Origin: Blattamonas nauphoetae
Lineage: Eukaryota > Preaxostyla > Oxymonadida
Reading direction: 5' to 3'
Length of the DNA: 64,000 nt
Assembly: GCA_033064195.1 (NCBI GenBank)
Contig: JARBJD010000069.1
Location: forward strand, 229,392-293,391
Shown: piece by piece, positions 19,819 through 50,259 of the stretch
Numbering within the stretch: position 1 is the first letter of the stretch
Layout of the letters: each line of letters opens with the position of its first letter
Made by a program: the position numbers and the translations under genes
The notes under the pieces: generated by a model
Database searches by the model: none
The model's input: only the letters and a program-made list of their open reading frames with translations
What the model was told of the DNA's origin: nothing

Positions 19819-22460
19819 TTACTCTTCTTGAAGGTTCGTGCCCAGCCGATCGGTCCATTCGACCGAGTTGACAGCAAGATCAGTACCAAAGTCCCCGTTT
19901 ACGTCGTTCAGCAACTTCTCCTCAATCACATCTTCGATGCCTTCCGATTTCAACAATCGAACCATTGTCTTCCACATTTGGCGATCTTGTCCACCTTGTT
20001 CGTTCCATTCCCACTGGGCATTGTTGAGATCACACAGAAAAGCCCAAATTGAGTTCTCATGTTCGAAGTACAGTCGGTCGGACTGTTGAGGAATTTGTAA
20101 CTCGTCACGTCAAACCTGAAACTGTAGAATTGCATTTTTCATCGAAAATAAAAAAAGTGTCAAACCTCCGTCTGTCTCATGTGTCGACATTCGATTATCT
20201 TTCAAAATTTCCATTCAAAATTCCATATCAAGATTTCTACATCATTGTTGAGCACATTCTTCAACTTTTTTCGTGATCGTGTGCTGAGAGAATGAGGAGA
20301 GTATTCGATTGGAAAAAAGAAGACAACAAAGGACGATACCGGAACAACCCAGAGAAGACATAGGGTGCTGGGCGCATTCAAGGGTCTCGTACAACCAGCT
20401 TGGGAAAAATGATGATCCAGTCGTGGAGGAAGAAAAGAGCGTATTTTCAAGGAATCAGAAAGCAGTGTACTATGCTTGATAAAAGAAGACAGTAGAAGAG
20501 AAATATCATGAAATCAAACCTAAATTTTTGATAGAGAATCAGAGAAAACACATCGTTTGGAAATCCGAAGAGCAAACCCATCTGACTTTACTAGACTCGA
20601 TTCAAAATAGATTGTCCAAATTTCAAGAAGTCTGAGGGGAGCTTGTTGAACAGTGATACATAGATTTGATGATGTTCAATTCGGTTCGCATATCCATTTT
20701 TGTCTCTCAAAGTTCCACCCACTCCGGTTTATCAACACGAGTGGAGACGACTTTCAACAGAATGAGAGATTTGCACTGATGTCCGGAAGTATTTGGTTTG
20801 CCGTCTTAATAATTTTGTCAACCAACAATGTAAATTTCTGAAATCTGTACGATTCGGACACTGATTTCATCTCAAACCTTGAAAGTACAACTTCAAAGAA
20901 ATCAAACGGCAAACTTACTATTTCCAGACATCAGTGCAAATCTCTCATTCTGTTGAAAGTCGTCTCCACTCGTGTTGATAAACCGGAGTGGGTGGAACTT
21001 TGAGAGACAAAAATGGATATGCGAACCGAATTGAACATCATCAAATCTATGTATCACTGTTCAACAAGCTCCCCTCAGACTTCTTGAAATTTGGACAATC
21101 TATTTTGAATCGAGTCTAGTAAAGTCAGATGGGTTTGCTCTTCGGATTTCCAAACGATGTGTTTTCTCTGATTCTCTATCAAAAATTTAGGTTTGATTTC
21201 ATGATATTTCTCTTCTACTGTCTTCTTTTATCAAGCATAGTACACTGCTTTCTGATTCCTTGAAAATACGCTCTTTTCTTCCTCCACGACTGGATCATCA
21301 TTTTTCCCAAGCTGGTTGTACGAGACCCTTGAATGCGCCCAGCACCCTATGTCTTCTCTGGGTTGTTCCGGTATCGTCCTTTGTTGTCTTCTTTTTTCCA
21401 ATCGAATACTCTCCTCATTCTCTCAGCACACGATCACGAAAAAAGTTGAAGAATGTGCTCAACAATGATGTAGAAATCTTGATATGGAATTTTGAATGGA
21501 AATTTTGAAAGATAATCGAATGTCGACACATGAGACAGACGGAGGTTTGACACTTTTTTTATTTTCGATGAAAAATGCAATTCTACAGTTTCAGGTTTGA
21601 CGTGACGAGTTACAAATTCCTCAACAGTCCGACCGACTGTATGTGAGACAGCTTGGAATCGTGAGAACGACAGGCATATGAAGAACGAAATCCATCGTCG
21701 GTTGGTAGGATGGAGATATTCGGAGGAGTGTTGCAAGAAGTAACACAAAACTCTCGGATTGCGTCTCATCGTTCATCGAATAGCGGTTCGCGCACAAATA
21801 GCAAATATACTTCTCGGATGGTACCAGAACTTGCTTTAGAACCGTCTTGTAAACGGCTTGTTGTTCATCATGATCTTCAATCTCGAGTTGGTCGAGACCA
21901 TCCGGAGCTGTGAGCCAGGCAGAGATCCGGATGATTTTCATGATATGGATGTGGATATCCACTGCTTCTGCAAAAGAGAGCGACTGCAGATTGAGATTGA
22001 TGACGATTTGAGGGAGCAGATCAGCTTTTACGAGGGCTAGTCGGATGTTCGGTGAACACCATAAGCTCAGAGAATAGAGCATCTTCATTGCTGCGGTCTT
22101 TATGACATGATTGGGTGTGGAAACAAGCACCAGAATGTATTGTATGAAGATGGTCAAAGATTCATCAGTGGTTTGTCCAAAGCTGTTGAGAATTGCATCG
22201 GCTGATTCTTGGGCATACAGATCCACAGATCCGAGAAAATTAACGGCTTTAGTTTCTAGAGACACATCAAATGAAGGCTGGAACTTCACAGAGGCAACGA
22301 GAGACCGAAAGACAGCAGCCTGTTCGGATTCAGATGCAAGTTGTTCTTCATCCCAATTCAAGAAAGGAGAACAGTCTGGTGAATATGACAAGCAGTGGGA
22401 AGAAATACCAGGGCAAAAGGAATCAGTGGAGGAGGAATTCTTCGTGTCTACAGCTGTCAT
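19819..22460 (-). pseudogene. FLNWDEE-family copy 3, split by a 1569-bp foldback element
   Basis: The N-terminal part (22460..21642) runs through FLNWDEEQLASESEQ, LVKADLLPQIVINLNLQSLS and EKYICYLCANRYSMNDE to IPSCLT. The C-terminal part (20070..19819) resumes with YFEHENSIWAFLCDLNNAQW, then SEGIEDVIEEKLLNDVNG, and ends in TAA. Both parts are open with no other damage. Removing 20071..21641 (the element plus one TA) gives 1071 nt, 356 residues, collinear with the uninterrupted copies. As genomic DNA it cannot make a full protein unless the insert is removed. The insertion must be young, or it is excised. No GT...AG pair lies at the boundaries that would splice it precisely. Confidence 0.75.
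20071..21639. mobile_element. 1569-bp foldback element with TA target duplication
   Basis: The ends are CAGTCGGTCGGACTGTTGAG and its exact reverse complement, flanked by TA on both sides. The arms (about 20071..20780 and 20930..21639) are reverse complements with no indel: positions sum to 41710 throughout. The 82-residue translations on opposite strands (20202..20450 and 21260..21508) are identical. The unpaired centre is ~150 bp. No transposase is encoded. TA duplication and ends of the form TACAGTCG suggest mobilisation by a Tc1/mariner-type enzyme in trans. Confidence 0.85.
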
Positions 22461-22639
22461 TCTGTCGGATTCTGAAGTCAATCACTCGTTATGGGACAGA
22501 TTGGAGAATCAAACGATGACACTGAGATGAAATTGACACCCAAAAGGAAGAACAAAAAAGTCAATCAGCGAAGATCAGAACGATCCATGATGATAAGGAA
22601 GCATGTGAACGAGATGAAAGAGGCAATGAAGGAACACAG

Positions 22640-23342
22640 ATGAAGAGATGCTGGAAGCTCGCTGCTGAGCCAAAACCAGCTGTGGTTGCTCCTGCGCAAG
22701 CGGAGTAGTGACCGGGCACCATTTTCTGTTCATCGAACCATTTCTGTCGGTCTGCGATCGGACTGACATTAAAAACATACAAACTTCATCATTTCGAATC
22801 ACTCATATCGTGTGAATCATGTTGTGAGAATCGATGGAGATCTTCAATGTTCCGAGAGGGTTCAATGGGTGGATGATGTGTTGGTCGAGTGTGATGATGT
22901 TGACTGGTAGTCGACGAGATGAAGACAAAGTCGGCAGAATCTCTGCTCCACTCGCTTCTCGCTCGTGACTTGAGAGGCATCAACGAGTTTCTTGCTTCTT
23001 TTATCCGACTCCTCGGTATCAAACTTCGTGAGAGCACCATTTGAGAGAACAATCACAGAAACAAAAACTCCCAGCAATCGTTACAATTGATCGATCGACT
23101 GATTGCCTTCCAAAAAAGGAGCTCTCGTCTGGTGAGAGAGTGAGGAGGGAGTGGTTGATGTCATGAACAACAATCTTGATTCTTTCGCCTTTCCGAAGAG
23201 TCGACGACGATCGTCGATGTGTATCGTTCCGGCAGATGAAACCATGAGGTGACGTCAGACCCGAGATACATCACGCAAACAGTGTTTGTTGTCCAAGAGA
23301 AGTCAGAAACTGTGTGAAATGTTCGCTGGTTCTTGTTTGCTT
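22640..23342. repeat. Copied tail of the peroxiredoxin gene plus family flank
   Basis: 22653..22860 repeats the last ~48 coding bases of the peroxiredoxin gene, its TAG and ~150 bases of 3' flank (14679..14890) with few changes. After a deletion, 22920..23120 repeats 15570..15760. 23160..23340 is the common 3' flank, with TTTCCGAAGAGTCGACGACG and ACCATGAGGTGACGTCAGA. This fixes the origin of copy 4 as a segmental duplication of the Prx-copy 1 region. Confidence 0.75.
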
Positions 23343-24416
23343 CTATTGCTGTTCCAGGATGTTCATGCCCTGCAAAGTGTTCCATTCGATCGAGTTAGAT
23401 GCACCACGCACTCCGAAGTTTTCGTCTTTGTCGTTGTGCAGTTTTTCTTCAATCACATCTTCGATGCCCTCCATTCTCAACATTTGGAGCACTATCTTCC
23501 ACATAAATCGCACTTCTCCGCCTTGTTTGTTCCATTTCCGCTTGTCATTGATCATTCCCCACAGAAAACTCCGAATTGGCTCTTCTTTTTCGGTGAATGT
23601 GAGACAACTTGGGATCGTAAGAACGACTGGCATATGAAGAACGAAATCCATTGTCGGTTGATAATATGGACATATCCGGAGGAGATGAGCGAGGAGTTCC
23701 ATAAAATCAGAGGATAGCACTCCATCGACGATCGAATAGCGGTTCAGACACAAATGCCAAATATACTTCTCCAAAGATGCCAAAACTTGCTGAAAAAACG
23801 TATTATGAACAGCTTGTTGCTCATCACCATCTCCAATTCCGAGTAGTCTGAGATAATCCGGAGTTGCGAGCCATACAGAATTGGTGACGATTGAGATGAG
23901 ACAATTGTGGATATCGACCGCATCTACAAATGAAAAAGACTGTGGATTGAGATTTCTGACGAGTTGAGGGATCAGATCAGCTTTGAGGAGTGAAAGTTGG
24001 GTTTTCGTGGAACTGGTTTTAATCAGTGTTCTGAGGATTTTCATTACTGATGCGGTGATAACCGGACTGGCAGACGAAATGAGCACCGCAATGGACTGAA
24101 TGAAGTTTATCAATGAATCATCATTGGTTTGTCCAAAGCTGTTGAGAAATGCATCGGCTGATTCTTGATAATCCAGATCCAGAGATTCGAGAAAATTCAC
24201 GGCTTTCGCTTCGAGAGAGTCATCAAGTGTAGGCTGAAACTTCACAGTGGCAACGAGAGACTGAAAGACAACTGCCATTTCTCGTTCAGTCACAGGTTCT
24301 TCTTCATCCCAATTCAAGAAAGGAGAACAGTCTGGAGAATGTGAAAAGCAGTGGGAAGAAATACCAGGGCAAAAGGAATCAGTGGAGGTGGAAGTCTTCG
24401 TGACCAAATCACTCAT
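23343..24416 (-). CDS. FLNWDEE-family helical protein, copy 4 (intact, 357 aa)
   Basis: 1074 nt from the ATG at 24416; a TTG at 24437 extends the frame but precedes the standard start. The N-terminus is MSDLVTKTSTSTDSFCPGIS, followed by SPDCSPFLNWDEEEPVTERE. The body contains FINFIQS-type helices (DSLINFIQSIAVLISSASPV), LLKADLIPQLVRNLNPQSFS, EKYIWHLCLNRYSIVDG and MPVVLTIPSCLTFTEKEEP. It ends GMNILEQQ, as copy 1 does. Of the uninterrupted copies it is most like copy 1, sharing KLHNDKDENFGVRGA. Function is unknown. Confidence 0.8.
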   Translation of the reverse strand: MSDLVTKTSTSTDSFCPGISSHCFSHSPDCSPFLNWDEEEPVTEREMAVVFQSLVATVKFQPTLDDSLEAKAVNFLESLDLDYQESADAFLNSFGQTNDDSLINFIQSIAVLISSASPVITASVMKILRTLIKTSSTKTQLSLLKADLIPQLVRNLNPQSFSFVDAVDIHNCLISIVTNSVWLATPDYLRLLGIGDGDEQQAVHNTFFQQVLASLEKYIWHLCLNRYSIVDGVLSSDFMELLAHLLRICPYYQPTMDFVLHMPVVLTIPSCLTFTEKEEPIRSFLWGMINDKRKWNKQGGEVRFMWKIVLQMLRMEGIEDVIEEKLHNDKDENFGVRGASNSIEWNTLQGMNILEQQ

Positions 24417-24692
24417 TCTGTCGGATTCTGATGTCAATCACTCGTTATGGATCAAACCACAGAATGAGCGAAACAATGACACTGAGATGAAATTGGCACC
24501 CGAAATGAAGAACAAAAAAGTCAATCAACGAAGATTGGAATGATCCACGATGATATGGAAGCCTGTGAACGAGACTGAAAGAAAGAGAGGATGATGGTGA
24601 AGTGAAACAGAATCAGTAGGCAAGAGACACCATTTTTTGTTTCGTCGAACATCGTAGAAACAATGTAGTCAGTCTGGACCTGACAAGAATCG

Positions 24693-25652
24693 TCAGGATC
24701 GGATTCGTCTGAGCCACAGCACCTCAACAGCGAGATTCTCTTCAACGAACCCTGTTGAGATTCCGAGACAGAGACGAGAAGGGATGCTGTGGAAGATCCC
24801 AGGCTGTTCCTCATCGTCAACAAACAGTCGAGCTTCTCTAGCCCACATGTTCACTCGAATCGCTGCTGTCTGGCCGATTCGATCACACTTCTCGTTGGTT
24901 CCAGCTGGCTTGAATTGTCCTTCATTCCACATGCTTCCATCCCAAAGATTGAAATCAACATCAATCCCATTTCTGATAATGTGGTAGCTTGCTCTGATTT
25001 TGAGTTCCCATTCTCCCTCATCGATCGGAAAAGAGAATGCTGTGGCGTAATCGATGCTTCCTTCGAGTATTTTGTTGATTTGTGTGAATGTGGTTGGGGT
25101 AAGTCTGATTCGACTTCTGTTGAGTGTTTTGAGTGATTCGGTTCCGACCCAAATCGGAAGATCGGTTTGCAGAAGGTTCATCCGCTCCATCTTCTCAACC
25201 ATCTCTCTCTTCTCTCTCTCACTCTTCTCCTTCTCTTTTTTCAGTACTTCAAGTTCTTTCCTTGTTTTCTTCACTTCATCTGATAATTTCTCTTTGTCTC
25301 GTTGAGCTTGTTCTTTCTCATCTTCTGCTTTCTTCAGCTTTGCCTCTGCCTGTCTTTGCATCTCCTCTGCCATCCTTTTCCCTTCTTCATCTGTTTTTAT
25401 GATATCTTCGGCCTGTTTCCCTGCTGCCTGCACTGTCACTTGTTGTGTTTGTTCTGGTGCTGCTGGTGACTCGACAGGGACTTCAGTGTCGACAGCTGCC
25501 CTTCCAGTCTCCAGACAGCACCCATCCATGCAGGCTGTGAACGAAGCAGACGATGTGATGTGTGTCGCCCAGAACTCCAGCGACTGCGGAGACAGCGTGG
25601 CTAGTCGCGAGGTCGGCTGTGTCGATGTTCTGTCGGTCTGTCTGCACGCCAC
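24693..25652 (-). CDS. Coiled-coil protein with C-terminal SPRY-like domain
   Basis: The open frame has 319 residues. The real start may be the ATG at 25529 (MDGCCLETGRAAVDTE), because residues 1-41 look non-coding. A Glu/Gln/Pro segment is followed by a long charged coiled coil, about residues 80-160 (RMAEEMQRQAEAKLKKAEDE through REKREMVEKMERM). Then comes a beta-rich domain that starts LPIWVGTESLKTLNRSRIRL. It continues IDEGEWELKIRASYHII, DFNLWDGSMWNE and RLFVDDEEQPGIFHSIPSRL and ends VEENLAVEVLWLRRIRS. The pattern, with a turn-rich 'DDEEQPG' near the end, resembles SPRY/B30.2 folds. I recall this module from many Blattamonas proteins, some with kinase domains; here no kinase is present. 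It may therefore be a truncated or split member. Function would be protein binding, by inference. Confidence 0.6.
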   Translation of the reverse strand: MACRQTDRTSTQPTSRLATLSPQSLEFWATHITSSASFTACMDGCCLETGRAAVDTEVPVESPAAPEQTQQVTVQAAGKQAEDIIKTDEEGKRMAEEMQRQAEAKLKKAEDEKEQAQRDKEKLSDEVKKTRKELEVLKKEKEKSEREKREMVEKMERMNLLQTDLPIWVGTESLKTLNRSRIRLTPTTFTQINKILEGSIDYATAFSFPIDEGEWELKIRASYHIIRNGIDVDFNLWDGSMWNEGQFKPAGTNEKCDRIGQTAAIRVNMWAREARLFVDDEEQPGIFHSIPSRLCLGISTGFVEENLAVEVLWLRRIRS

Positions 25653-26309: not shown

Positions 26310-26995
26310 TTAATAGTGTCCAGGTCGGGGAGGGTTCATGCCCAGCAGGTTGTCCAAACCGATCGAACTGGCAACAACAAGACGTCGTTCGGGTGTATTT
26401 TTGTTATTTCGCAGTTTTTCTTCAATCACATCTTCGAAGCCCTCCATTCTCAACATTAAAATCACTGTCTTCCATATCTGTTGCTCTGATCCCCTCGTTT
26501 TGTTGTATTGTCGCTGGATTTGGATCATTTCATTCAGAAAACGCCAGATTGAGCCATCATCTTCGAAGAATGCGAGACAGCTTGGGATCGTGAGAAACAG
26601 GGGCATATGAAGAACAAAATCCATTGTCTGTTGATAAGATGGACATAATCGGATGAGTTGGATGAGTAGTGCCAGAAAATTTCTGGATTGTAATTTTTCG
26701 ACCATCGAAAATCGGTTCACGCACAAATGCCCAATATACTTTTCTGAAGGGACCACAACGTGCTTCAAGATCGTCTTGTGAACAGCTTGATGTTCATTGC
26801 CATCTTCAATTCCGATTCTTGCGAGACTATCCGGTGTTGCGAGGCAGACAGAGTTGACGAGACTGAGAAGGAGAGAAGTGTGGATATCCACTGCTTGAGC
26901 AATTGGAAGACATTGCGGATTGAGAGAGAAGATGAGTTGAGGGATCAGATCAGCTTTGACGAGAGAATACCGGACTTTGGCTGAACAGTTCGTCA

Positions 26996-27343
26996 TAGAC
27001 CCTCCACAAAACCGGTTTTATTTATGAAACCGGCTAAAATCAAAATAAGACGTTTCATCCACAATTTCGCCAAAATCTCTGAACACGTCACGTAATACAC
27101 CATTTCAAGAAGAACTAGAGATTTTTCAAAAACCAAGAAGTGACGAAAAGAAGGCATTTTCCCCATTATTTGGAAACTTTCTCATGTTTTTTTGCGATTT
27201 TGATGATATTCTCTCTTATCAAACTACTGTTACCATGTTTCTAAGAGGTATTAAAGTACAATTCTTACATTATATTATGAAAAATGACCTTATAATGAAT
27301 AAAACCGGTTTTGTATATTTTAGCCGGTTTTGTGGAGGCACTA
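26996..27343. mobile_element. 348-bp TIR element, TCA target duplication
   Basis: Left end TAGACCCTCCACAAAACCGG; right end is the near-complement, CCGGTTTTGTGGAGGCACTA. Flanks are TCA/TCA on the plus strand. Subterminal AAACCGGTTTT palindromes repeat at each end and the middle is AT-rich. It encodes nothing. Its frame-restoring boundary is a 3-bp duplication, unlike the TA elements. Confidence 0.75.
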
Positions 27344-27701
27344 TCAGCAGAGTTTTGACCATCTTCATTGAGGCAGTGATGATAACTTGATTGGCTGAAG
27401 AAATGAGTACCACAATGCAATGAACGAAGTTGCTTAAAGATTCAGCAGTGGACGATGCAAGGGTGCTGAGAAAGGCATCGACATTTGATGGAGTCCCCCG
27501 TTGAACAGATTCTAGAAGCTTCACTGCTTTCGCTTCCAGAGAGTTTCAATTGTAGGCTGGAACTGCACAGTGGCAACCAGAGACTGCAATATAATTGCTT
27601 GTTCATGTTCAGATTCAAGTTTTTCTTCGTTCCAATTCAGGAACGGCGAACAATCCATAGAAAATGGCCTCTGAGAGGAGGGTAAATCAGAGCGGGTTGT
27701 A

Positions 27702-29153
27702 TACTGCCCGACACGACGACTTGATTCGGCTGTACAATGTTTTTCTTTTTTTGAATAGAGGCACAATTAGTTTCAATTTTCTGTAAATGATAATTTAGAG
27801 AGTTAGACACCTTGTGATAAAAAATTGGACACCAAAAAATTCTGAGTGACACGAAAACTGTAACACAAAAAAAATGATGGACATGTTCATCACGACATGA
27901 CACGTGATTCACTTCATCCTGCTCGACCGCTCTGATATTTCGTCATTTTTCCTCCACGATTGGAACACATGAGGAGGCTGTCGCCACATGAAAGAACGAA
28001 ATCGACAATACTTTCTTGTGGGATCGAGTTCGTGGCACGCACGATTGTCTTTCGAAGTGAATCAATTATGACATTAATCACATAATTTTCAAAAAAAAGT
28101 GAGAAAGGTTTTCCCCGAAGGTGTTTGATGGTGTTCATGTTGGAAGAACCCGTGGGATGAAATTCTTAGCTCATATTTCCCCTTTTGATTCTAGAAAGTT
28201 CCATTGTTTTCCTGTTCCAGACCGTGATATCACTGAGAAAGACATGCGTGTGGAGGGGATGGTACATTTTGGCCTTGGTTCGTCACTTGATGGGAGACTC
28301 AGAGGAAGCTTCAAAAGCATACTCTTTCCACGGAAGACAACTTTGGCAGAAAAACGAATCCCAACCCATCCCCAAATCCTGAGTTAAAAGAGGTGATATG
28401 TGACCTTGATCCTTGGCAAGGTATGTTTTTTCCGTCTGTCATTGTCGAATGTCTCTGGTCCTCTCCCTCTTGAATTTTTTGAATCCTCAAACATTCAAAG
28501 CTCATCAATTCAAACCTTTCGAACGAGTGTCCTTTGCGAAAGCGAAACGTTTTTGAAATTGATTGGAACGTGACGGAGGAACTCTGGAAGATGAATTGAG
28601 ACAGTTTGGATTCATTTTGAAGATGCATTGGAAGGAAAGGCTTGACTTGCTGCTTTTCAGATTTCTCTTCAGTTGACCGACTGTTCTGTAGGACTTGGTT
28701 TTGATTTCGATCTGAACATTTTTCTAGATCTTGATGATGTCAAGCTGTGGTGGGCCTTTTCATTTCGCGATTCGCTGTCAATCATCGACGATCAGCGTGT
28801 TGGTGAACTTGGAGACGGTATTGACAGAGCCTCCAAGAGGAAGAGCTGTCTCATTTCTTCCCTTTCTTCTTCGTCTAGCCTTCATGATCTATCTCTGCGC
28901 GGACATTGACAATCATTGTTCCATTTGTGAGTGCAATCCGAGGTGAATCACATGTCATGTCGTATGACGAATGTCCCCCTACAGTTGCATTTCATGTCAT
29001 TCTCTCTTATTTTTCACAGTTGTTCTTCCAAAAAAATCACAGAGATGTATAACTCAAGGTAGTTGAAGTGAGTGAAAAATGAACTCTCAACTCTCTCTTG
29101 TTCTGTCAAAAAACAAAAATTACTGGTGGATCTAGTCGCCGTGACGCGCAGTA
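27702..29153. mobile_element. 1452-bp element with imperfect TIRs and TA duplication
   Basis: Ends are TACTGCCCGACACGACGACT and, reversed, TACTGCGCGTCACGGCGACT; TA flanks both. The TIR is about 26 bp with several mismatches. The interior holds short frames only. The best is at 28185..28382 (+), containing HLMGDSEEASKAYSFHGRQL, possibly a fragment of a captured gene. Another plus frame spans 28673..28909. No transposase is recognised, so it is probably non-autonomous. Confidence 0.65.
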
Positions 29154-29193
29154 TATTTGAGGTGGCAGCTGTTTTCTTGTCAATCGCGGTCAT

Positions 29194-29971
29194 TTGGACA
29201 GTTTCAGAAACAAAACGCTAGTTATGGGTCAACACAAAGAATCGAAGAAAGAGAATGAGATGAAATGGGTGTTGAAAAAGAAGAAGGAAAAGCAGCCAAC
29301 AAAGACTGATACAATCCATCAACAAAGAGAATATCCCACAATCACGGTTGGGAACAGCGTCAACACGCAATCCCCAAAAGCCAAGCAAAGAGAATCGAGA
29401 GCAGTTGAGGGAGCAGGGCTGCTTCGATCAGTGTTCGGAAGAGCTGGTGTGCACAGAGATCGTTCGGAGGACGGAGCGATGCATGTCCAGTATCGTTTCC
29501 ATCGCATTGCTTCCCCCGCTTCAGGTCCTCCTTCTGCTTCTCGTTTCGAGAGGGGGAGAGATCAGCATTTGGGTGGTGTGCATGAACAACCATTTTGATT
29601 CTGTCTCCTTTCCGAAGTGTCGACGACGATCGTCGATGTGGATCCATTCGGAAATGGCATCGCAAGTACGTCCACAACAGAAGACGATCCTGTGGCACAA
29701 TCACAAATCAAAGATCTCACACAAACCGCAGCCAATCGTCAGCATCGACAGCTTCCATTTCGGAGCAGTTGGAGCAGTGCGAGAGTGGCGGCGAAGGAGA
29801 GGGAGAGTGTGTGGCGATCATCAATCGAGACTGGCTGGGGAGAATCCAAATCTTTCCCGCAAACCAAACCATGAGGTGACGTCAGAGTCGACAACAATCA
29901 CACACAATCAGTGTTTGTGGTCCGAAAAAAGTCGGAAACAAGACGAAAGGTTCGCTGGTTCTTGTCCGATT
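29194..29971. repeat. 5' flank of copy 5 and 3' flank of copy 6
   Basis: 29194..29290 is the upstream region of copy 5. 29530..29970 is the full-length version of the common downstream repeat, with GGTGGTGTGCATGAACAACC, TTTCCGAAGTGTCGACGACG, ATCCTGTGGCACAATCACAA and ACCATGAGGTGACGTCAGA. It is closely similar to 33890..34320 and 51245..51675. Frames across it are not conserved as protein. Confidence 0.65.
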
Positions 29972-31937
29972 CTACCAAGGCTCTGGAAGGTTCATGCCCA
30001 GAAGACTGTTCCATGTGATCGAGCGGGGAACAATCCAACTTCCAAAGTATCCGCTTTTGTCGTTTCGCAGCCTTTCCTCAACCACATCTTCGTTGCCCTC
30101 CATTCTCAACGTTCGATGCATAGTCTTCCCGATCTGTCGCTCCTCTCCCCTTTTCTTGTTCCATCCCAGCTGGGCCTTGATTATGTCAACCAGAAAACGC
30201 CAGATTGAGCCATCATCTTCGAAGAATGCGATACAACTTGGGATGGTGAGAAAGACAGGCATATGAAAAACAAAATCCATTGTCGGTTGATAATATGCAC
30301 ATATCCGGAGGAGGTGAGCAAGAAGACGCATGAATTCTTTAGACATGTCACCATCAACGATCGAATTGCGGTTCACGCACAAATGCATGATATACTTCTC
30401 CGATGGGGCGAGAACTTGCTTCAGAACTGTCTCGTGAACAGCTTGTTGTTCATTCCCATCTTCAATTCCGAGTTCTTCCAGACTACCCGGTTTTGCGAGG
30501 CAGACAAAATGTCGGACGATGTTCATGATGTTGACGTGGATATCGACTGCTTCCGTGAAAGAAAGAGGCTGTGGATTGAGAGTGACGATGAGTTGAGGGA
30601 TCAGATTAGCTTTGACAAGGGCAAGGAGGGGTTTAGCTGAACAGAGCCAAATCAGATAATCAGTCACGGACAAAAGTAAGTGGTCACCCCTTCCTGCATT
30701 TATGACTAGATGATTTTTCACACTTGTTTCGTAAACACTTCACCCTTTTGAAAGACTGTCATTTTTCAAATATAAAACAAAAAAGAGAATGTGAAGTGGA
30801 AATCGAGATGTTTGATTGAGGAGTCTCCCAAGGTACTTTTGATCGCGGCTGTATCAATCTGTCTCCTCTTCCAAAGAGAGGAGATGTGACCTGTGGAATA
30901 TGATCCTCCACTGAGAACTGTCAGTTTCCGCTCCCTGCAGAGATGATGGATGATCTGAAGCTGAAAAGTGTGATTTCTGTCTTCTTCATCTCACCTCACC
31001 CATCCGTGTAACTCTCCAGAACTCTTTAACTGCTCTTGAGAATGCGTGTTTGCCCCTCATCCAACGAATTGCTGACAAATGTGGTGTGTCAGGATGTTGA
31101 CGAAATTCTCAGAATCTTGTTGTCACTACAGCATGTCACAATAATAAAGTCGAGGATAGTATCAACTTAATCTTCGTGAAAGTGAACGTTTGAAAGAGTT
31201 ACACGGATGGGTGAGGTGAGATGAAGAAGACAGAAATCACACTTTTCAGCTTCAGATCATCCATCATCTCTGCAGGGAGCGGAAACTGACAGTTCTCAGT
31301 GGAGGATCATATTCCACAGGTCACATCTCCTCTCTTTGGAAGAGGAGACAGATTGATACAGCCGCGATCAAAAGTACCTTGGGAGACTCCTCAATCAAAC
31401 ATCTCGATTTCCACTTCACATTCTCTTTTTTGTTTTATATTTGAAAAATGACAGTCTTTCAAAAGGGTGAAGTGTTTACGAAACAAGTGTGAAAAATCAT
31501 CTGGTCATAAATGCAGGAAGGGGTGACCACTTACTTTTGTCCGTGACTGAATGGAGCATCTCCATTGCAGCTGTGGTGATAGCCTGACTGGGCGTGGAAA
31601 GGAGCACCACAATGCACTGCACGAAGTTGGTTAAAGATTCAGCAGTGGACGATGCAAGGCTTCTGAGAAAACCATCCGCGGATGATTCATTATAGGGTTT
31701 TACAGATTCGAGAAACCTCACAGCTTTTGCTTCCTGAGAGGCATCAAGTGTAGGCTGCAACTTCACAGTGGCAACGAGGGACCGAAAGATAGCTACCTTT
31801 TCGGATTCACATGGATTGTTTTGTACGTTCCAATTCAGGAACGGTGAGCTATCCATTGAAAATGGTAATTCAAAGGAGGGCATGGAAGATCGAGTTGTAC
31901 TTGAAAAAGCATTGATTTCAATGGTTACATTCTCCAT
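29972..31937 (-). pseudogene. FLNWDEE-family copy 6, split by an 889-bp palindrome
   Basis: N-terminal part 31937..31553: MENVTIEINAFSSTTRSSMP, SMDSSPFLNWNVQNNPCESE, then VVLLSTPSQAITTAAMEML. C-terminal part 30660..29972: YLIWLCSAKPLLALVKANLI through EKYIMHLCVNRNSIVDGDMS to LLGMNLPEPW. Removing the palindrome and one AAT gives exactly 1074 nt, 357 residues, with no other lesion. The insertion lies between codons for Met-Leu-His and Tyr-Leu-Ile, the same codon as in copy 8. Confidence 0.78.
30661..31549. mobile_element. 889-bp foldback element A, AAT target duplication
   Basis: Ends are CAGTCACGGACAAAAGTAAG and its complement, flanked by AAT. The arms of about 355 bp (30661..31016 and 31194..31549) are near-perfect reverse complements. 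The ~180-bp centre is unpaired. It encodes nothing convincing. It has the same length and ends as the element at 40788..41676, but the arm sequences differ substantially between the two. Confidence 0.85.
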
Positions 31938-34320: not shown

Positions 34321-35394
34321 CTATCGACGCCATGGAAGGTTCATGCCCTGCAGGTTGTTCCATTCGATCGAGCCGAAATCAACCCATCTTCCGGAGTCAG
34401 TTTGTTTGTCGTGTTGCAGCTGGGCCTCAACCACATCTTCGATGCCCTCCATTCTCAACATTTGGAGCACTGTCTTCCCCATCTGTCGCTCAACTCCCCT
34501 TTTCTTGTTCCATTCTCGCTGGATAAGGATCATTGAACGCAAAGAATGCCAGATTAAGAACCCATCTTCGAAGGCTGTGAGACAACTTGGGATCGTGAGA
34601 ACGACTGGAATATGAAGAACAAAATCCATTATCGGTTGATGAGAAGGAGATATTTCGAGGATGCGAGTCAGAAGAATCATGAATTCATTCGACATGTCGG
34701 CATCGACGATCGAATAGCGGTTCATACACAGATGCCAAATATACTTCGCCGAAGGCGCCAAAACATGCTTGAAAACTGTCTCTAGAACAGCTTGCTGTTC
34801 ATCGCTATCTTCAATTCCGAGGTCGGCGAGACCATCCGGAGTTGCGCGCCAGAGAGATCGGCGAATGCTCTCCATGATGCTGATGTGGATATCGACCCCT
34901 TCATCAAAGGAAAGAGTCTGCGGATTGAGAGTGATGACAATTTCAGGAATCAGATCAGCTTTGACGAGGGAAAGGTAGACTTTGGCTGAACAATCCTGAA
35001 GCAGACTATCCAGCATCTTCATTGCAGCTGTGGTAATAGCCCGACTGGTTGAAGAAATGAGCACCATAATGCACTGCACGAAGTTGTTCAAAGATTCATC
35101 AGTGGACGATACAAAGCTGCTGAGAAATGCATCTGCTGATTCTTCATCATTCGGCTTCACAGATTTGAGGGATTTCACTGCTTGAGCTTCGAAAGAGACA
35201 TCAACTGAAGTCTGGGACTTAACTGTGGCAACGAGAGATCGAAAGACAACTGCATTTTTGGATTCAGAAGGATTGTTTTGTACCCTCCAATTCAGGAACG
35301 GAAAGCAATCCATTGAAAATGCCAAGTGAGAAGAAGACAACTCAGAGCGTGTTTGATTTGATAAAGTGTTTGTTTTCTTGATTATCGGGTTCAT
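34321..35394 (-). CDS. FLNWDEE-family helical protein, copy 7 (intact, 357 aa)
   Basis: 1074 nt from the ATG at 35394; a GTG at 35400 is in frame. N-terminus MNPIIKKTNTLSNQTRSELS, then SMDCFPFLNWRVQNNPSESK, where 'WRVQNNPSESK' replaces the usual WDEE acidic run, as in copy 6. The body is collinear: FVQCIMVLISSTSRAITTAA, LVKADLIPEIVITLNPQTLS, AKYIWHLCMNRYSIVDADMS, VVLTIPSCLTAFEDGFLIW, LQMLRMEGIEDVVEAQL. End GMNLPWRR. The upstream box is degenerate (35418..35429), so expression may differ from the other copies. Function is unknown. Confidence 0.8.
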   Translation of the reverse strand: MNPIIKKTNTLSNQTRSELSSSHLAFSMDCFPFLNWRVQNNPSESKNAVVFRSLVATVKSQTSVDVSFEAQAVKSLKSVKPNDEESADAFLSSFVSSTDESLNNFVQCIMVLISSTSRAITTAAMKMLDSLLQDCSAKVYLSLVKADLIPEIVITLNPQTLSFDEGVDIHISIMESIRRSLWRATPDGLADLGIEDSDEQQAVLETVFKHVLAPSAKYIWHLCMNRYSIVDADMSNEFMILLTRILEISPSHQPIMDFVLHIPVVLTIPSCLTAFEDGFLIWHSLRSMILIQREWNKKRGVERQMGKTVLQMLRMEGIEDVVEAQLQHDKQTDSGRWVDFGSIEWNNLQGMNLPWRR

Positions 35395-35570: not shown

Positions 35571-38500
35571 ATGCCTCCAAAACATAAACTGAGGAAAACG
35601 CGCAGTGTTCCACAATCTACTCCTCATGTACAAACGGTTCACTCGAATAGTTCAAGTACAGACATCGTGGATTCATCGCATCCAGATTGCGTCGAAACCA
35701 ACGAAGAATTTCCGATTAATTCCCCTCCAAACCAATCAGCCAATGATTTCCTCACGATCCTCCCAGATGATCAACCCTATGTTCAAATTTCAAAGCAAAT
35801 TATGCAATACGAAACGAAAAGAAGACGACTCCATCTCGAACCAAACTCTATTCAATCACATCTGGTGGGTGGTGATATTCATCCTCAAACTTCGATTACA
35901 TCGGATTGGAGAGTCGTTTTGCAGGATTCAATTACAGATGATAATTTGCGGTAGGGATGTATTACCCTATTCAAGCCACTGAAATCTGGAACTGAATTAT
36001 CATCCAGCGAAGTGGACCACGCAATTCGGTTCCTGGAATACACCACCATGTACCTCCATAGTGTTCCCCAAGCACCTTACCGGTTTTTCAGAGACATCTT
36101 CGACGGTTCCTTTTCGCCAACTACAGTCGGTTTGATAAATGGTAACAGGTCCCACTTTTCTCCTCAATGGGACGATCTTCCTTCATTTCATTGAAACCTT
36201 TCTATTTAGACTTCAAAACATTCACATCAAAATGAAATAGAACAAGACTTAATAATCTTCAGTTAAATTGTGAGATGATCACCTGTTTGAGATAGAGACT
36301 CAGATCGATTAAGAACGAAGAATGGGGATCTCTGCCCAAAGTTGATAAATATGGTTTCAACGGATTCCATTGTTCGTATTTCGGTGTCTTTCAATCAGAT
36401 ATATGTGTTCTGAATGAAACAGTCCGTATTAGAGATATCCTTGAAATCTTGAGAATTTGATCGTCCCATTGAGAACAAAAGTGGGACCTGTTACCATTTA
36501 TCAAACCGACTGTACTCTCACGTCATCTCTCCTCAAAATCTTATCCCATCCGTCCAAAACACTGTGTGCTGTTACACTTGCTTTTCTCTCCATTGGGTTC
36601 TCAGATTGGATGACAGAATTCTCTGAAGAGATCGCAAAAACCGACTTCTTCTACCAACTCCTCTCACTCCTGAAGCCCCACGAAATTCCGTTCAGCGACA
36701 CGACTTTGAACATCCACCATCATGTTACATCGATTATCATGGGTTTTATCGACGAAAGTGAATCATTGATCGAAGAACCACTTCCACCTGAAACCATCTC
36801 ATCGATTCTCCTAACTTTCTGTCCGTACTTGCGGTATCTCATCGCCCATCCTGCTTTCTTCCCTTGGAAGCTATTTGAGATGACATTTGACTTGATTCTT
36901 CATTCATTCGAAGAGATAATCATCTCTCTCGACTCTCGCTCATCTCATCCCGAACTTGTTCAATTTGTCGACGAAATGAAGAACACACTTTCCGAAGAGC
37001 TTGCATCTTTGATCGGTCTTGCCGATCAAAAGGAGACAGCCAAATGTCTTCTCTTCGACGAACAGGATTCACCAAGCACTTCTGTTTGGATGAAAGGATT
37101 TGAATGTCTGCTCGCTCATGCTGACGAAGGGAGACAATTCTCTGATGTTGGACTGCAGTCGATTGTGATCTTCCTCGAACGTTGCCCAGGTTATCCACGA
37201 CTGGTCTTCGCGGACGATGGCACATTCACAATCCGAGTGAAGAGCAAGTTGGTTTCTTCGTCCAAATTCCATGTCCGATCACTCTGGGCTCTCCTCACCC
37301 CAACTCAACCGCAGCACGCAACAGCTCTTATCAGTGCCGCTCACTTCGTCTCCGATTGGATCGATTTCGAAGACAGAATCAAACATTTTTGGATTGGCTG
37401 GCTCTCCCACTTCCTCAACGCTGTCAACCCTTCGCGCCTGCCATTCACACCTCAGTACTTGTCACTCCATGCTCACCTCGTCGATGTGATGCGCGATATA
37501 ATTTATTCCTTCGGTAAATACGAGCTTAACGCCGAATTCTATCCACCAACCATCACTCAAAGTGAGTTGAAGAAGTGTTGTCTCTCGTTTCTCAATCTCT
37601 CGAAAGAGTATCTCGTCCATCTCTCGCACAATGCGCTCGCAAACCATCCATACAACGATGCCGCAGTTTGTGACTTGCTTTCCCAAGTGATGAGATTTGA
37701 TCTAGAGACACCCACCACTGAAGGATTTCGTCGAGAGCTGAAGGAAGAGATGATCTCGTCTGGTCTCGCTTCGTCCTCTCCGCCTTTCATCCTCACAGCG
37801 GAACTTGTGTGTCCTCTCTCAGTAGGCGAGACGATGGACGTTGTGGATCGAATTGTGGGTCTGCTGGACAGGGACTGCTCTTTGGATGACGACGCGATTC
37901 TGCGGATGTGCGTGTTCATCGCGCGTCACAACTCCCGAAGCCTCCAACTCGCGTTTCGAAACACTGGACACTCGAAAGAAGAGTTTTTGCACGCCATCGA
38001 ATCTTTCCTCTCTCTTCACATCGAATCGTTCCAACATGCACCGATTCGAAGTCTCCTCTCGTCTCGACCAGACGATCACGAACCAACATTGGACGAATGG
38101 GACGAGGCTGATTTGGAGACAGTCCCGATTGTGATGCACATGAGAAAACAGAACCTACTCTCAATCGACACTGACTCTGTTGAGTTCCAAGATTTCTTCA
38201 TCAACTTTGTTGTGCGCAGCCTCCAACAAGCTCGTCACTGCGCGACCCGATTACTCGAACACAGCTTGAGCGTCTGATCGCCCCGTCTATCGATTGCCTC
38301 AACAAATGCTTCAAACATCGTCGTTTAACCTCCGGAATGTTCCGTGATCAATGGCAGGAAGTGTTTCAAGGAGTCTGTTCAGTCTGTGACCAGCCAGTTG
38401 TGTCTCGTGCCATCAGCAAGACGGGACTCTTCTTCCGAATTGTGAATGGGATCACAAAACGTTTTGAGGTGGAGAGGTCGATGGTAAACTTGATGTTCCT

Positions 38501-40098: not shown

Positions 40099-42064
40099 CT
40101 ATCGACGAAGTGGAAGGTTCATGCCCTCAAAGTTGTTCCAATCAATCGATCTGCCAACAGTCCATCCTCCTTTTCTCCCGTTTTTGTGGTGTTGCAGCTT
40201 TGTTTCAATCACATCTTCGATGCCCTCCATTCTCAACATTCGATGCATTGCTTTCCCCATCTGTCGCTCTGCTCCCAATTTTTCGTTCCATTCTCGCTGG
40301 GTAACGATCATTGAACTCAGACAATACCTGATCGATTCATCATTTTCGAAGAATGTGAGACAACTTGGGATCGTGAGAATGACTGGCATACGAAGAACAA
40401 ATTCCATTGTCGGGTGATAATATGGACATATCCGGAGGATACGAGCAAGAAGAAATATGAATTCATTCGACATGTTCCAATCGACGATTGAATAGCGGTT
40501 CACGCACAAATGGCAAATATACTTTTCCAAAGGCACAATAACCTGCTGCAAAACCGTCCCGTGAACAGCTTGTGGTTCATCGCCATCTTCAATTTCGAGT
40601 TCTTCGAAACCACGTGCAGTTGCGGGCCAGAGAGAAAAGGTGATGCTCGACAGGAGAGAAGTGTGGATATGGACTGCTTCAGCAAATGAAAGAAACAAGG
40701 GATTGAGGGTAATTGCTAGTTGAGTGATCAGACCAGCTTTGATTAGGGAAAGTCGGACTTTTGCTGAACATCTCATCATCAGAGAATCAGTCACGGACAA
40801 AAGTAAGTGGCCACCCCTTCCTGCATTTATGAACAAATGATATTTCACACTTTTTTCGTAAACACTTCACATCACTGAAAGACGGAAATTTTTCAAATAT
40901 AAAAAGGGAGTAGTGTGGTGAAGTGGAAATCAAGAGATTTGACTGATGTGCCCTGGGAGGCACTTTTGATTGCGGATGTCACAATATGTCTCCTCTTCCA
41001 AGAAGAGGAGATGTGACCTGTATAGTCTGTTCCTCCACTGAGAGCTCTCAACTTCCACTCCTCGCAGAGATACTGGACGATCCGCGACGAAAAAGTGTGT
41101 TTTCTCTCTTCTTCATCCCTCTTCAGCCAGCTTTGTAAAGACATCAAACGCTCTCTCTGACGATGTTATTGAGTATTCTCACTTTCTCTCAATTGTAAAG
41201 ACCTGCTGTAGGGAACATGAGATTCGCACATTTTCTCCCACATTTTTTCACTCCACAATTGTCAGCTCTCTATCGAACAAGGACAGAATAAGCATTCTGA
41301 CGACAAGTTAAAGAGGTTGGAAGTGTTGCACGGTTGTCAGAAGAGGGTTGAAGAAGAGAGAAAACACACTTTTTCGTCGCGGATCGTCCAGTATCTCTGC
41401 GAGGAGTGGAAGTTGAGAGCTCTCAGTGGAGGAACAGACTATACAGGTCACATCTCCTCTTCTTGGAAGAGGAGACATATTGTGACATCCGCAATCAAAA
41501 GTGCCTCCCAGGGCACATCAGTCAAATCTCTTGATTTCCACTTCACCACACTACTCCCTTTTTATATTTGAAAAATTTCCGTCTTTCAGTGATGTGAAGT
41601 GTTTACGAAAAAAGTGTGAAATATCATTTGTTCATAAATGCAGGAAGGGGTGGCCACTTCCTTTTGTCCGTGACTGAATAGGGCATCTTCATTGCTGCTG
41701 TAATGATAACCTGACTGGCAGAAGAAATGAGCACCACAATGGATTGAATGAAGTTTATCAATGAATCATCAGTGGTTTGTCCAAAGCTGCTGAGAAATGC
41801 ATCGGCTGATTCTTTATCAGACGGATCCACAGATTCGAGAAAATTCACGGCTTTAGTTTCGAAAGAGACATCAAATGAAGGCTGAAACTTCACAGAGGCT
41901 ACGAGAGATCGAAAGACAACTGCTTGTTCATGTTTTGATTCAAAAGGTCTTTCATCCCAATTCAAGAAAGGAGAACAGTCTGGAGAACATGACAAGCAGT
42001 GGGAAGAAATACCAGGGCAAAAGGAATCAGTGGAGGAGGAAGTATTCGTGACCAGATCACTCAT
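40099..42064 (-). pseudogene. FLNWDEE-family copy 8, split by an 889-bp palindrome
   Basis: N-terminal part 42064..41680: MSDLVTNTSSSTDSFCPGIS, SPDCSPFLNWDERPFESKHE, INFIQSIVVLISSASQVII and TAAMKMPY. C-terminal part 40787..40099: SLMMRCSAKVRLSLIKAGLI, LEKYICHLCVNRYSIVDWNM, MPVILTIPSCLTFFENDESI and the end GMNLPLRR. Removing the palindrome plus one AAT gives exactly 1074 nt. The N-terminal half is nearly the same as copy 10, the C-terminal half less so, which suggests gene conversion among copies. Confidence 0.78.
40788..41676. mobile_element. 889-bp foldback element B, AAT target duplication
   Basis: Same ends and length as element A (30661..31549). Its arms, 40788..~41128 and ~41336..41676, pair almost perfectly (positions sum to 82464); I noted one mismatch near the ends. 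Translations of opposite arms are identical over ~75 residues. Compared with element A the arm sequence differs at perhaps a fifth or more of positions by eye. Confidence 0.85.
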
Positions 42065-46300: not shown

Positions 46301-47725
46301 TCGTAAATCATCCTGTAAGACAGTCCATAAAACCCACGTCTGGCCGGCCTGATAAAGATCAATCATCTTGGTCACGCAGTGTGTGAAACCAAACATTCCA
46401 TTCACACAAGTTAACTATTAATAAATGAGCACGTTCATCATGTGAACTCCCCCTTCGTTCCTCCAAATGTCTGGATTTGGAGGCCACGAGTTGCAGACCA
46501 CGAATGGATTGTACTTTGTTCCGCGAGATCAACGGTCCTCCCAATATCAACGTTCATAGTTGTAGAAACTCGAAGCTGAAACCAGAAACTAATTTGGGAC
46601 GTCTAAATTGTCGATCTGGTGCTAAAGTCCTCCAGGCGATCAGAAAGTCTCCCTCTGTCGGTCTGTACCCGTTAAAAACCAACGTAAACGATCGTGGTCG
46701 ATTTGTGAAGTCTGAGGGACGTCCAGACTCAGCTTGCGTTCTATCGGATCGTCGGACATGATCCACTGGTCTAGCCTCTTGTGTACGAACAACCATCATT
46801 TCTAGAGCTTGTATTGTGACGCCATGATGTGTTTGATTCTGGGGAATGGCGACGTCTGCCACCATTCTCCTTTGTTTCCTCATCGTGTGGCGATGTCACT
46901 GAGCAGCGTTTCCTGAAAGAGATTCTCCAGCGTGAGAGAAATCTGGGTGCTGTCCGCACTGTAATATGTTTCGAGGATGAATCACGTATTATTTTTTAAC
47001 CTTTGAGTTCGTGGGCGCAACTTAAAGCATCAACTGGGGTGGGCAGCTCGTTCAGTCCTTTTGGAAAACATGAGTCATCGATACGACTCGGAATCGGTGT
47101 TTTGTCCAACCTCCCTCGCGATCGGCATGATCAAAGTCTTCATTTGTCCAAAGCAGATGTCCGATCCCACGGAGTTCGACACGTACGAAATATAGTGTGT
47201 CACTGCTATTCGCCTCAAGGGTATGATACTCGATCGCGAATAACAATTGTATTCGTGCGAAATGACACTAAACACCTTGAATCAGTACTTCCGGTCGAAC
47301 GGTGTTTGATCAAGAAACATGGGCTATTCGACAAAATTTTGAGTTCTGAGAATTATGTTGATATCGGTTCCAATGATGTCCGAAATGTATGACACCCTGG
47401 TCCACCTCCTCGTCTTCCTTGTTCGCTGCGCTTGTCGTTTCCTGGTGGTGTACTGTAGTCATGTGTTCTGTCCCTGCCTTTAATCTCGGGTTGTGTCGCC
47501 TCGGTGAACCTCGTCGCAATCAACTCCAGTGATTATGAGGTGTAGTTGGTGAAGTAACTTCTTCGTTTGACACAAAAATGACTGAATGGTGTTAGGTTGA
47601 ATAAACAGCCAGTTCGTCGTTATGTCCATTCTTAACAAGGAATTGAGAAAAACGTTTGTATCTTAACAAAACAGTTTTGCGAGAAAAGACGAGGAGGCTT
47701 CGTTATTTTGTTGAAAGAATCTCAG
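43396..47725. other. 4.3 kb of degenerate DNA between inverted repeats
   Basis: No intact gene. Frames up to ~130 codons (44308..44706, 47003..47392) show no clear domain. One plus-strand stretch, about 46905..46997, reads EQRFLKEILQRERNLGAVRT then VICFEDESRIIF before a stop. The 'F-x-DES-R' run resembles the second catalytic Asp region of Tc1/IS630-like DDE transposases. This might be a decayed transposon body; the match is weak. Confidence 0.3.
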
Positions 47726-47803
47726 ATCGGCCAGCCCATTTCAGGTACTCGCTGTGTTGAGGAGCCCTCGTTTGGGCTTGGAGTGACCAGAGGGAACTCC
47801 ATG
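47726..47803 (-). repeat. Right member of the long-range inverted repeat
   Basis: Reverse complement of 43028..43085, extended outward by a segment shared with 43350..43395 (GAGTGACCAGAGGGAACTCC on the plus strand). Confidence 0.65.
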
Positions 47804-48706
47804 ATCAATGCATCGAGTGTCGCTGCAGGGTGAGTGCTTGCCTTCCCTCTTCATCTCCCGTCGAGGGGAGAGGGACGAGGGACGGGTTGGGGCATTGACG
47901 AAGAAGCCTTTTGGTTCTTCCGTCTTTCCGAAGGGTCGAGGACGATCGACCATCGAGCAATACTGGTGAGAGAGAATCCCATCTCATCATTGCGATCGTT
48001 CTTCATGCAGGCTGCATCCAACACGTCAATCCAGTCTCTCATGACATCCTCGTGCATTCGCTTGTCCGAGAAAGCAAAGCGTTGAGGATCGACAGAACGG
48101 TGACGTTGCAGTTCGCGTCGAGCAGAGTCAATCCGTGTCGACAGCTCGTTCCAACAAGCACTCCAGCATCACTCACTCGTCGTCAGATATCAACTGGGAT
48201 GCTATGCCAATGCTGCATTCTTCGCGATGCCCGAGCCGCTGGCGAGTCCTGTGCTCCACCAATCTCGACACGACCATCCCTTCTCACTGATGGCACAGAT
48301 CATCCAAAATCACATTCCTGCTGCATCCCCCAAGATTGCAGTCAAAGGGCGGTGGATAGGGAAGACGAATTCTCAGCAATCTGAAGTGTATGGCTGAGAA
48401 ATGCTGACGCACCTGGCGAGCGATCAGTTCCGATGAAAGGGGGAGACGGGGAGATGGAGTGAGTTGGGTTTGATTCTTCGTTTTCGAATTCCTGTAAAAT
48501 GCTTGTTTCGTGACAATTCTGTTAGTGTTGTGGGCTTTTGTTGAAACGCGGGTGCATGATGGTTGGAATGAACAACACATTCCAGTCAATCATTCAGGCA
48601 CACCATGATGTGATACCAGAGCCTACAAAGCTCACACACACGAGCAGTGTTTGTTGTTCAAAGAAGACACAAACAGTTCCAAAGGTTCGCTGGCTCTTGT
48701 CAGTTT
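47804..48706. repeat. Relics of the common flank, downstream of copy 9
   Basis: 47915..47980 is a worn copy of the shared flank (TTTCCGAAGGGTCGAGGACG). 48310..48470 matches 18110..18290 downstream of copy 2. 48640..48706 has the usual approach to a family stop codon. No gene is seen. Confidence 0.5.
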
Positions 48707-50259
48707 CTACCGACACAGTGGTGTGTTCATGCCCAGGAAGTTGTTCCATTTGATCGACAAGGCAACAATACGGCCTACTCTCCTTTCGTTTTGGTCGTGT
48801 TGCAGCTTTTCCTCTATCACATCGTCGATGCCCTCCATTCTCAACATTCGATGAATGGTCCTCCCAGTTTTTTGCACTTCTCCGCCTTGTCCGTTCCAGT
48901 CCAGCTGGGCATCGACCATGTAATATATAAAAAACCAGATTGCCCATTCAAATGGGAAAAATGTGAGACAACTTGGGCTTGTGAGAACGACAGGCATATT
49001 CAAGACCAAATCCATTGTCGGTTGATAATAAGGAGATATTTGGAGGAGGCGGGCGAGGACCTCCAGAAAAGACTCGGATTGGTCTCCATCGATGATCGAA
49101 AATCGGTTCACGCACAAATGGCAAATATACCTTTCCGAAGGTCTCACAACTTGCTGAAAAATCATCTTGTGAATAGCCTGTTGTTCATCATGATCTTCAA
49201 TCTCGAGTTGGTCGAGACCATCCTGAGTTGAGAGCGTGAGACAGAACACGATGATAGTACCCGGATAAACCCGTTAAGTCGGATAAACCCGTTACCAACA
49301 TACCCCACTTCACATTGAAACTTTTATTATGACGACTGATATGTTGTGCTTGAAAGAAAGTTATTGTTCGAATTCTGAAATGATTTGTCCCCGGTTCAGA
49401 TGTTTGATCGAGGTCAATGTGTCAGTTCAAATCGATGAATGACCAGCCACGACACCCTGTATGTGATGCTGAGTACAAAGAGGTCGTATCTCAATGTACC
49501 ATCCCTTGGACGCCTGGGAAGATATTGGCTAAGTTCCGAGCACATTTCGACTTACATTTTTCTCATTCCATTTCACAGTCATTCTTTCAACAGTGACTCC
49601 TGTTTTAAAAATAACAAAAAGAGTAATGATCGGGAAGTGGAAGGATAATTTTAGTGAAGAGGGGGGACTGCTATGCTCATGTGGAATGGTTAACGGGTTT
49701 ATCCGCTCTAACGGGTTTGTCCGACCACTATGATCATCATTAGATAGACGTGGATATCAACTGCTTCTGCAAAAGAGAGAGATTGTAGATTGAGACTGAT
49801 GACGATTTGAGGGAGCAGATCAGCTTTAACGAGGGCTAGTCGGATGTTAGGTGAACACAAATAGATCAGAGGTCTGAGTATCTTCATCGTTGTGGTGGTG
49901 ATAACCTGACTGGGTGAGGAAAGGAGTACCCCAATGGATTGTGTGAAGCTTGCTACAGAATCATCAGTGGTTAGCCCAAAGCTCCCGAGAAAAGCATCGG
50001 CTGAATCTCTGCCAGACGGAATCACAGATTCTAGAAATTTCACCGCTTTCGCTTCCACAGAGACATTAAGAGTAGGCTGTAACTGCACTGTTGCAATAAG
50101 AGATCGAAAGAGAACGATCTTTTCATCTTCAGATTTAGGTTTTTCTTCATTCCAATTCAGGAACGGTGAGCAATCCATAAAACAAGCTACATGAGGGAAG
50201 GACATATTAGCGCACGTTGCATTTGAGGAAGCGTCTGATTTCTCGTCAATCATGGTCAT
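48707..50259 (-). pseudogene. FLNWDEE-family copy 9, split by a 474-bp element
   Basis: N-terminal part 50259..49735: MTMIDEKSDASSNATCANMS, CFMDCSPFLNWNEEKPKSED, QSIGVLLSSPSQVITTTTM, LVKADLLPQIVISLNLQSLS and IHVYLMMI. C-terminal part 49255..48707: IVFCLTLSTQDGLDQLEIE, ERYICHLCVNRFSIIDGDQS, MPVVLTSPSCLTFFPFEWAI and the end GMNTPLCR. Removing the element with one copy of a 5-bp duplication gives 1074 nt, 357 residues, without any other break. An open frame extends upstream to 50523, but the ATG at 50259 has the standard box 23 nt before it. Confidence 0.78.
49256..49729. mobile_element. 474-bp TIR element, 5-bp target duplication ATGAT
   Basis: Ends AGTACCCGGATAAACCCGTT and, reversed, AGTGGTCGGACAAACCCGTT. 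Each end carries two tandem CGGAYAAACCCGTTA units. The flanks are ATGAT at 49251..49255 and 49730..49734. No coding capacity is seen. The 5-bp duplication separates it from the TA and 3-bp elements nearby. Confidence 0.78.

Follow-up and report, generated by a model that had tools for sequence, protein, structure and literature searches.

The window analysed here is a 64,000-nucleotide stretch of DNA (bases 229392–293391) at the end of a 293391-base contig in the 88.3-Mb genome of Blattamonas nauphoetae, an oxymonad gut flagellate, and it carries seven inserts that interrupt members of a gene family resembling armadillo (ARM)-repeat proteins. These inserts are very probably recent insertions of DNA transposons and of their non-autonomous derivatives, of the miniature inverted-repeat transposable element (MITE) or foldback kind. 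The insertions are ordinary, recent and gene-breaking, and their preference for regularly spaced spots within the family is unexpected. An earlier note on this DNA had left a choice between several transposon families that hit very recently and tolerated inserts that are taken out again, from DNA or from RNA. The first reading is borne out by multi-copy families, family-specific duplication rules and nearest copies that are 97 to 100% identical, and also by more than 200 transposase-domain matches in the genome. This plain reading replaces the more striking one of removable inserts, which was weakened by checking the age of the inserts against the decay expected of the genes.

The evidence read directly from the genome comprises the multi-copy families, the duplication rules, a transposase-coding relative of one family, the youth of the inserts and their presence outside open frames. 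We propose that transposases acting in trans would cut and paste the elements with duplication of the target, which is TA for the T1, 389-nt and 1452-nt families, TNA for the 348-nt and 474-nt families and an arbitrary 3 bp for the 889-nt family. Young insertions would have left the broken genes little time to decay, and the split genes would have lost their function within a family that is presumably redundant.

Element families and the genes they split

All seven inserts are present where the earlier note had placed them, with duplicated flanks and inverted ends; the family copies in the window lie on the minus strand. Copy 3 (19819..22460) is split at codon 273 by a 1569-nt palindromic (foldback) element of family T1 (20071..21639) with the terminal inverted repeat (TIR) CAGTCGGTCGG and a TA duplication, in which two 747-nt arms, 99% complementary, flank a 79-nt loop. 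Copy 5 (26310..29194, 5′ limit approximate) has a frame change and two inserts, namely a 348-nt element (26996..27343, ends TAGT/TAGA..CCTCC) with the duplication TCA, under the rule TNA, and a 1452-nt Tc1/mariner-type element (27702..29153), full-length but coding-defective, with a TA duplication. Copies 6 (29972..31937) and 8 (40099..42064) are both split at codon 128.33, by 889-nt elements with arms of about 355 nt at 30661..31549 and 40788..41676, respectively; the 3-bp duplication, random in this family, is AAT in both. These two inserts belong to different subfamilies (76–79% identical) and sit in opposite orientations at the same codon, with arms of 356 and 352 nt that are 100% and 98% complementary. 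Copy 9 (48707..50259) is split at codon 175 by a 474-nt element (49256..49729, or 49255–49730 counting an element-borne T and A) with the duplication TGA. A long relative of the family on the plus strand (36048..38277) is split near codon 25 by a 389-nt element (36124..36512, TIR CAGTCGGTTTG, TA duplication).

When the flanks are joined without one duplicate, copies 6, 8 and 9 return to exactly 1074 nt, as had been claimed. The wider claim that each deletion restores the frame holds for copies 3, 6, 8 and 9 and for the long relative but not for copy 5, in which two inserts and a frame change leave a longest open reading frame (ORF) of 235 aa. Copy 3 comes to 1071 nt (356 aa) rather than 1074, and the long relative gives an open frame of 612 aa from Met or 643 aa from stop to stop. 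Because cut-and-paste insertion duplicates its target, deleting an element with one duplicate restores the frame by construction. The statement that only copy 5 has another lesion did not survive, given a copy at 53813..54520 (minus strand, 5′ limit approximate) in which roughly the first 124 codons are missing and a relic at 50534..50758 (minus strand) that retains residues 49–124 only.

Near-identical copies of every insert occur at other places in the genome, so the inserts are not chance. The nearest copy is 100% identical over the first 790 nt for T1, 99% for the 348-nt insert, 97% for the 389-nt insert and 98% for the 474-nt insert, and that of the 1452-nt insert (locus L072) has 2 differences in 1452. 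For the 889-nt inserts, the nearest copy is 100% identical over 850 nt and 98% over the full length in copy 6, and 100% identical in copy 8.

The target rules distinguish the families and allow comparison with known element types. Of the 30 T1 rows, which count both arms of some elements, 29 have both ends, and TA is duplicated in all of these; it also stands in 29 of 31 left flanks of the 1452-nt family and on both sides of its window copy; for the 389-nt family, a TA duplication and a CAGT-type TIR were found in the window copy, the one copy examined. These features resemble Tc1/mariner elements, with TIRs that start CAGT (T1 and 389-nt) or TACTGC (1452-nt). The likeness extends to a DDE transposase between the TIRs in a 1455-nt relative of the 1452-nt insert (L073, 72% identical), whose intact 341-aa ORF matches DDE_3 (E 4e-13) and also, below Pfam's cut-off, HTH_Tnp_Tc3_2. 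The families differ from Tc1/mariner in the broken ORF of the 1452-nt window copy, in the almost wholly palindromic build of T1 with its 747-nt arms, and in the want of a linked transposase for T1 and the 389-nt family. Since the 1452-nt window copy and its near-twin L072 are both dispersed yet have no intact transposase ORF, the natural inference is that such copies would be mobilised in trans. The subfamily members L069–L071 and L073 are 17–30% diverged from the 1452-nt window copy, yet show just 5–7 single-base gaps over 1450 nt; no codon periodicity was found among these sequences.

The TNA duplication occurs in 20 of 21 cases in the 348-nt family and in 34 of 36 in the 474-nt family. For the insert of copy 9, the earlier target ATGAT is better read as TGA plus an element-borne T and A, on the evidence of 36 family sites where the flank reads T-N-A followed by an element-borne T (T in 35, A in 35, both in 34, and the element T in all 36). 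A 3-bp duplication with T first and A last, together with DDE_Tnp_4 matches in the genome, recalls PIF/Harbinger (IS5-like) MITEs. The PIF/Harbinger duplication is TWA, whereas here the middle base is free (C or G in 27 of 36 sites of the 474-nt family) and no transposase is linked, so the TWA form does not describe these elements. Matches to a 474-nt and a 348-nt element lie 1 base apart at C812:34870-35665 (genome coordinates).

The 889-nt type duplicates 3 bp of any sequence in 27 of the 28 rows in which both ends were identified (30 rows in all), which resembles CACTA/EnSpm. The hallmark ends of that group are CACTA or CACTG; those of the 889-nt family are CAGTC..GACTG, and it differs further in its near-perfect 350-nt arms and in having no linked transposase. 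Among the window copies and loci L039–L068, 22 of the 26 copies have arms that are about 99% complementary, despite a divergence of about 20% between subfamilies; the arms thus evolve together, by conversion or hairpin-based copying. L060–L063 score lower in the ungapped arm comparison. Across the genome, scoring 150 of 432 DDE_3 candidates and all 82 DDE_Tnp_4 candidates gave at least 150 and 62 matches, respectively, many of them with identical scores, and the 14 control genomes have a match in 3 (DDE_3) and 1 (DDE_Tnp_4).

Fate of the inserts in RNA and DNA

Removal was judged from the genome assembly, the element borders and one public gene model. Introners are transposon-derived introns, and ones with TIRs and target duplications are known elsewhere. 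The inserts resemble them as TIR elements with duplications that lie within genes and whose removal, by joining the flanks, would restore the frame. A GTAAGT near the end of the 889-nt element, and an in-frame GT..AG pair within 20 nt of both borders in 2 of the 7 inserts, would also suit introner-like elements that are spliced from mRNA and leave the genes active. We nevertheless regard this explanation as extremely improbable: none of the 7 inserts has GT-AG borders for exact removal, on which examination spliceosomal removal was rejected, the two 889-nt window copies are oppositely oriented, and many sites lie outside open frames.

The genome paper gives 88.5 Mb, 44.96% GC and 25,221 genes, with gene models informed by RNA-seq (PMC10703272). 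At copy 6, the one split copy for which the public model was compared, that model (BLNAU_9826, 230 aa) is reproduced by a start codon at 30699, inside the 889-nt element, and a 35-nt GT..AG intron (30637..30671, minus strand) that leads into the downstream half; the element is kept and the halves stay unjoined. Other family gene models may likewise start inside transposons, as BLNAU_9826 does (30637–30699).

Placement of the elements was examined at 49 distinct T1 and 889-nt sites, with flanks of up to 1.5 kb and introns ignored. An open frame of at least 70 aa on each side is interrupted at 17 sites (one of them without a duplication) and not at the other 32. Scanning five of the 17 interrupted frames identified a kinase domain, an ABC transporter and a beta-helix, with no Pfam match in the other two; these look like multi-copy gene types.

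Precise excision from DNA, in the manner of internal eliminated sequences (IESs) or by high somatic excision, would restore the frames and keep working genes in a fraction of the genomes or cells. It draws on the outer 8 nt of the T1 and 389-nt elements with TA (TACAGTCG), which fit the Paramecium IES consensus TAYAGYNR, but Tc1/mariner elements should show such a motif at their ends as well, and we know of no nuclear dimorphism in oxymonads. No empty version at 95% identity or above was found for any of the 7 sites among the 40 of 1051 candidates scored. The best junction-spanning matches, at 88% and 86%, are paralogs, and no assembled empty allele was found among the scored matches. Footprints are rare, with a one-residue indel at codons 128–135 in 1 of 124 family proteins and none at 172–180; excision footprints as a source of the family's variability were not seen at codons 128–134 or 172–180. 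On this evidence we consider precise excision very improbable. At 6 of the 7 sites, paralogs match across the empty junction (best per site 75–88%; none for 26996), and because the homologous sites are empty in paralogs, these six inserts are read as derived.

The earlier note had pointed to the clean look of the split genes, where neutral junk copies should have picked up other lesions. About 4% of substitutions in family ORFs create a stop, and at 0.2–1% divergence since insertion each gene would be expected to have 0.08–0.45 stops and 0.04–1.1 frameshifts. Since so few lesions are expected at such a young age, the clean copies 3, 6, 8 and 9 say little about selection, the argument from absent lesions fails, and we rejected selection deduced from it. 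Removal from DNA or RNA with tolerance of the inserts thus finds no support, given the 0 of 7 GT-AG borders, the lack of a near-identical empty site among those scored, the unjoined halves of the copy 6 model and the same elements outside open frames, though removal at a low level may occur.

Some observations weigh against recent, gene-breaking transposition as the full account. No transposase is linked to the T1, 389-nt, 348-nt, 474-nt or 889-nt families, although autonomous copies with T1 or 389-nt ends were never sought; the empty-site search rests on the fraction of candidates scored; and an insertion that just kills a gene predicts no position effect, yet the sites cluster.

The ARM-like family and where elements enter it

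Beside the split genes, the window holds intact minus-strand copies 1 (15952..17025), 2 (18396..19469), 4 (23343..24416) and 7 (34321..35394), each of 1074 nt, and a fifth intact minus-strand copy of 354 aa (51676..52740); the usual size of intact members is 357 aa. Protein searches matched 472 proteins with copy 2 as the query and 495 with a second member; among the 120 of 472 matches listed for copy 2, 119 are named, all from B. nauphoetae (BLNAU_). A Pfam scan of three window members gave no match above the cut-off. An AlphaFold model based on 48 sequences is all-helical (pLDDT 80.6, pTM 0.81), and its best solved structural matches are designed armadillo-repeat proteins and importin-alpha (probability 1.00, TM 0.52; best E 8e-3, none below 0.001). 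On this predicted fold, ARM-like is a fair description of the family and no proof. In an alignment of 65 members, hypervariable residues fall at about 40–45, 80–84, 129–134, 172–179, 236–244, 277–290 and 333–344, and across 11 intact genes pN/pS is 1.22 at hypervariable codons vs 0.46 at low-entropy codons. The family at 15952–54520 has hypervariable codons yet nearly constant length, and is possibly a diversified binding repertoire.

Insertion sites were mapped at 161 places, 49 by both flanks and 67, 32 and 13 by one flank. Family ORFs hold 23 of these (12+6+4+1), which with 4 window-only sites make 27; one further locus (L124) was dropped as past its gene's end. Sites at codons 3 and 13, in the variable N-terminus, were excluded from the inner tests, leaving 25 inner sites at codons 40, 41, 45, 51, 86, 88, 110, 128, 128, 131, 131, 132, 132, 135, 175, 175, 177, 178, 223, 224, 230, 273, 277, 280 and 346; 9 of the 25 are in distant members (21–34% identity), where mapping may err by a few codons. 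All but one lie at or before codon 281, and these 24, from five element families with three target rules, are mostly near codons 41, 86, 131, 176, 223–230 and 273–281, a spacing of about 46 codons, or 140 nt. Leaving out the last-added site (L173, from the 389-nt family, a weak 39-bit hit at codon 345.7), 31 pairs of the 24 sites are at most 4 codons apart vs 6.9 expected (0 of 20,000 simulations), and 23 vs 5.75 expected remain after removing two same-position cases. The copy 9 insert and that of L132 share a codon; since their flanks are just 70% and the elements 93% identical, they are most likely independent hits.

The best period for the 24 sites is 46.5 codons (0 of 3,000 simulations, period scan included), a regularity that was spotted after viewing the positions, so the P values do not come from a test set out in advance. 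Periodicity holds for the 19 non-window inner sites alone (P 0.0003) and the 15 close sites alone (P 0.0035), and a phase learned on close members carries over to the nine distant sites (P 0.0003). With L173 included, 0 of 5,000 simulations reach the 25-site value, and P is 0.0036 for the 20 non-window sites. All families follow the phase (mean cosine before L173 of 0.95 for TA, 0.87 for TNA and 0.64 for random-target elements). L173 itself goes against the spacing pattern, as do the sites at codons 110, 3 and 13.

The sites also favour high-entropy codons, with a mean of 1.93 vs 1.47 for the 24 inner sites (P 0.00005), P 0.00025 for 25 sites, P 0.0015 for the 20 non-window sites (codon 3 in, L173 out) with the target rule respected, and P 0.053 for the nine distant sites alone. 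Hypervariable-helix membership alone is a weak predictor (11 of 24 sites, P 0.047). Local target sequence was rejected as a cause, as weight matrices built on sites outside the family show no preference for variable codons (expected 1.33–1.53 vs 1.49 unweighted). GC is a weak one (P 0.07, 0.006, 0.03 and 0.49 for spans of 5, 9, 15 and 21 codons), and ten base-composition features at three widths gave z of at most 2.2.

The cause that we favour would be periodic accessibility of DNA or chromatin; nucleosomes would be expected to give a spacing longer than 140 nt, so some feature of the repeat-coding DNA itself is equally likely. The main rival to accessibility is retention bias, in which gene conversion among paralogs erases inserts from conserved segments and spares divergent patches. 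The preference for high-entropy codons would suit it, as would the mosaic look of some copies, such as copy 8 and the copy at 51676, closely alike by eye in the first 125 residues only; gene-conversion breakpoints at the patches were not counted, for they fall at variable codons by construction. The hot spots near codons 223 and 273 are, however, conserved (entropy 0.7–0.8), and retention does not predict regular spacing, which makes it a serious but unlikely account of the clustering. More speculatively, families with different target rules may share a single set of entry points spaced by about 140 nt and situated mostly at the hypervariable helices; breaks left there as elements enter and leave would be mended from paralogs, and this traffic would shuffle and diversify the family with its length kept, an idea that we hold to be quite improbable. 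Shared, regular entry points would either give a chromatin map for a protist that has been little studied or tie transposons to the diversification of a hypervariable repertoire.

Other features of the window

An ORF at 3581–5272 encodes a PB1 domain and, after it, tandem repeats of apparently Cys-Cys-Lys-rich composition. Near the contig end, a G-rich 30-bp unit is tandemly repeated about 122 times at 55177–58827; the array is strongly strand-asymmetric and contains long open frames. C-rich tandem arrays of 30–32 bp with the opposite skew lie at 61824–62275 and 63839–64000, the second of which reaches the contig end.

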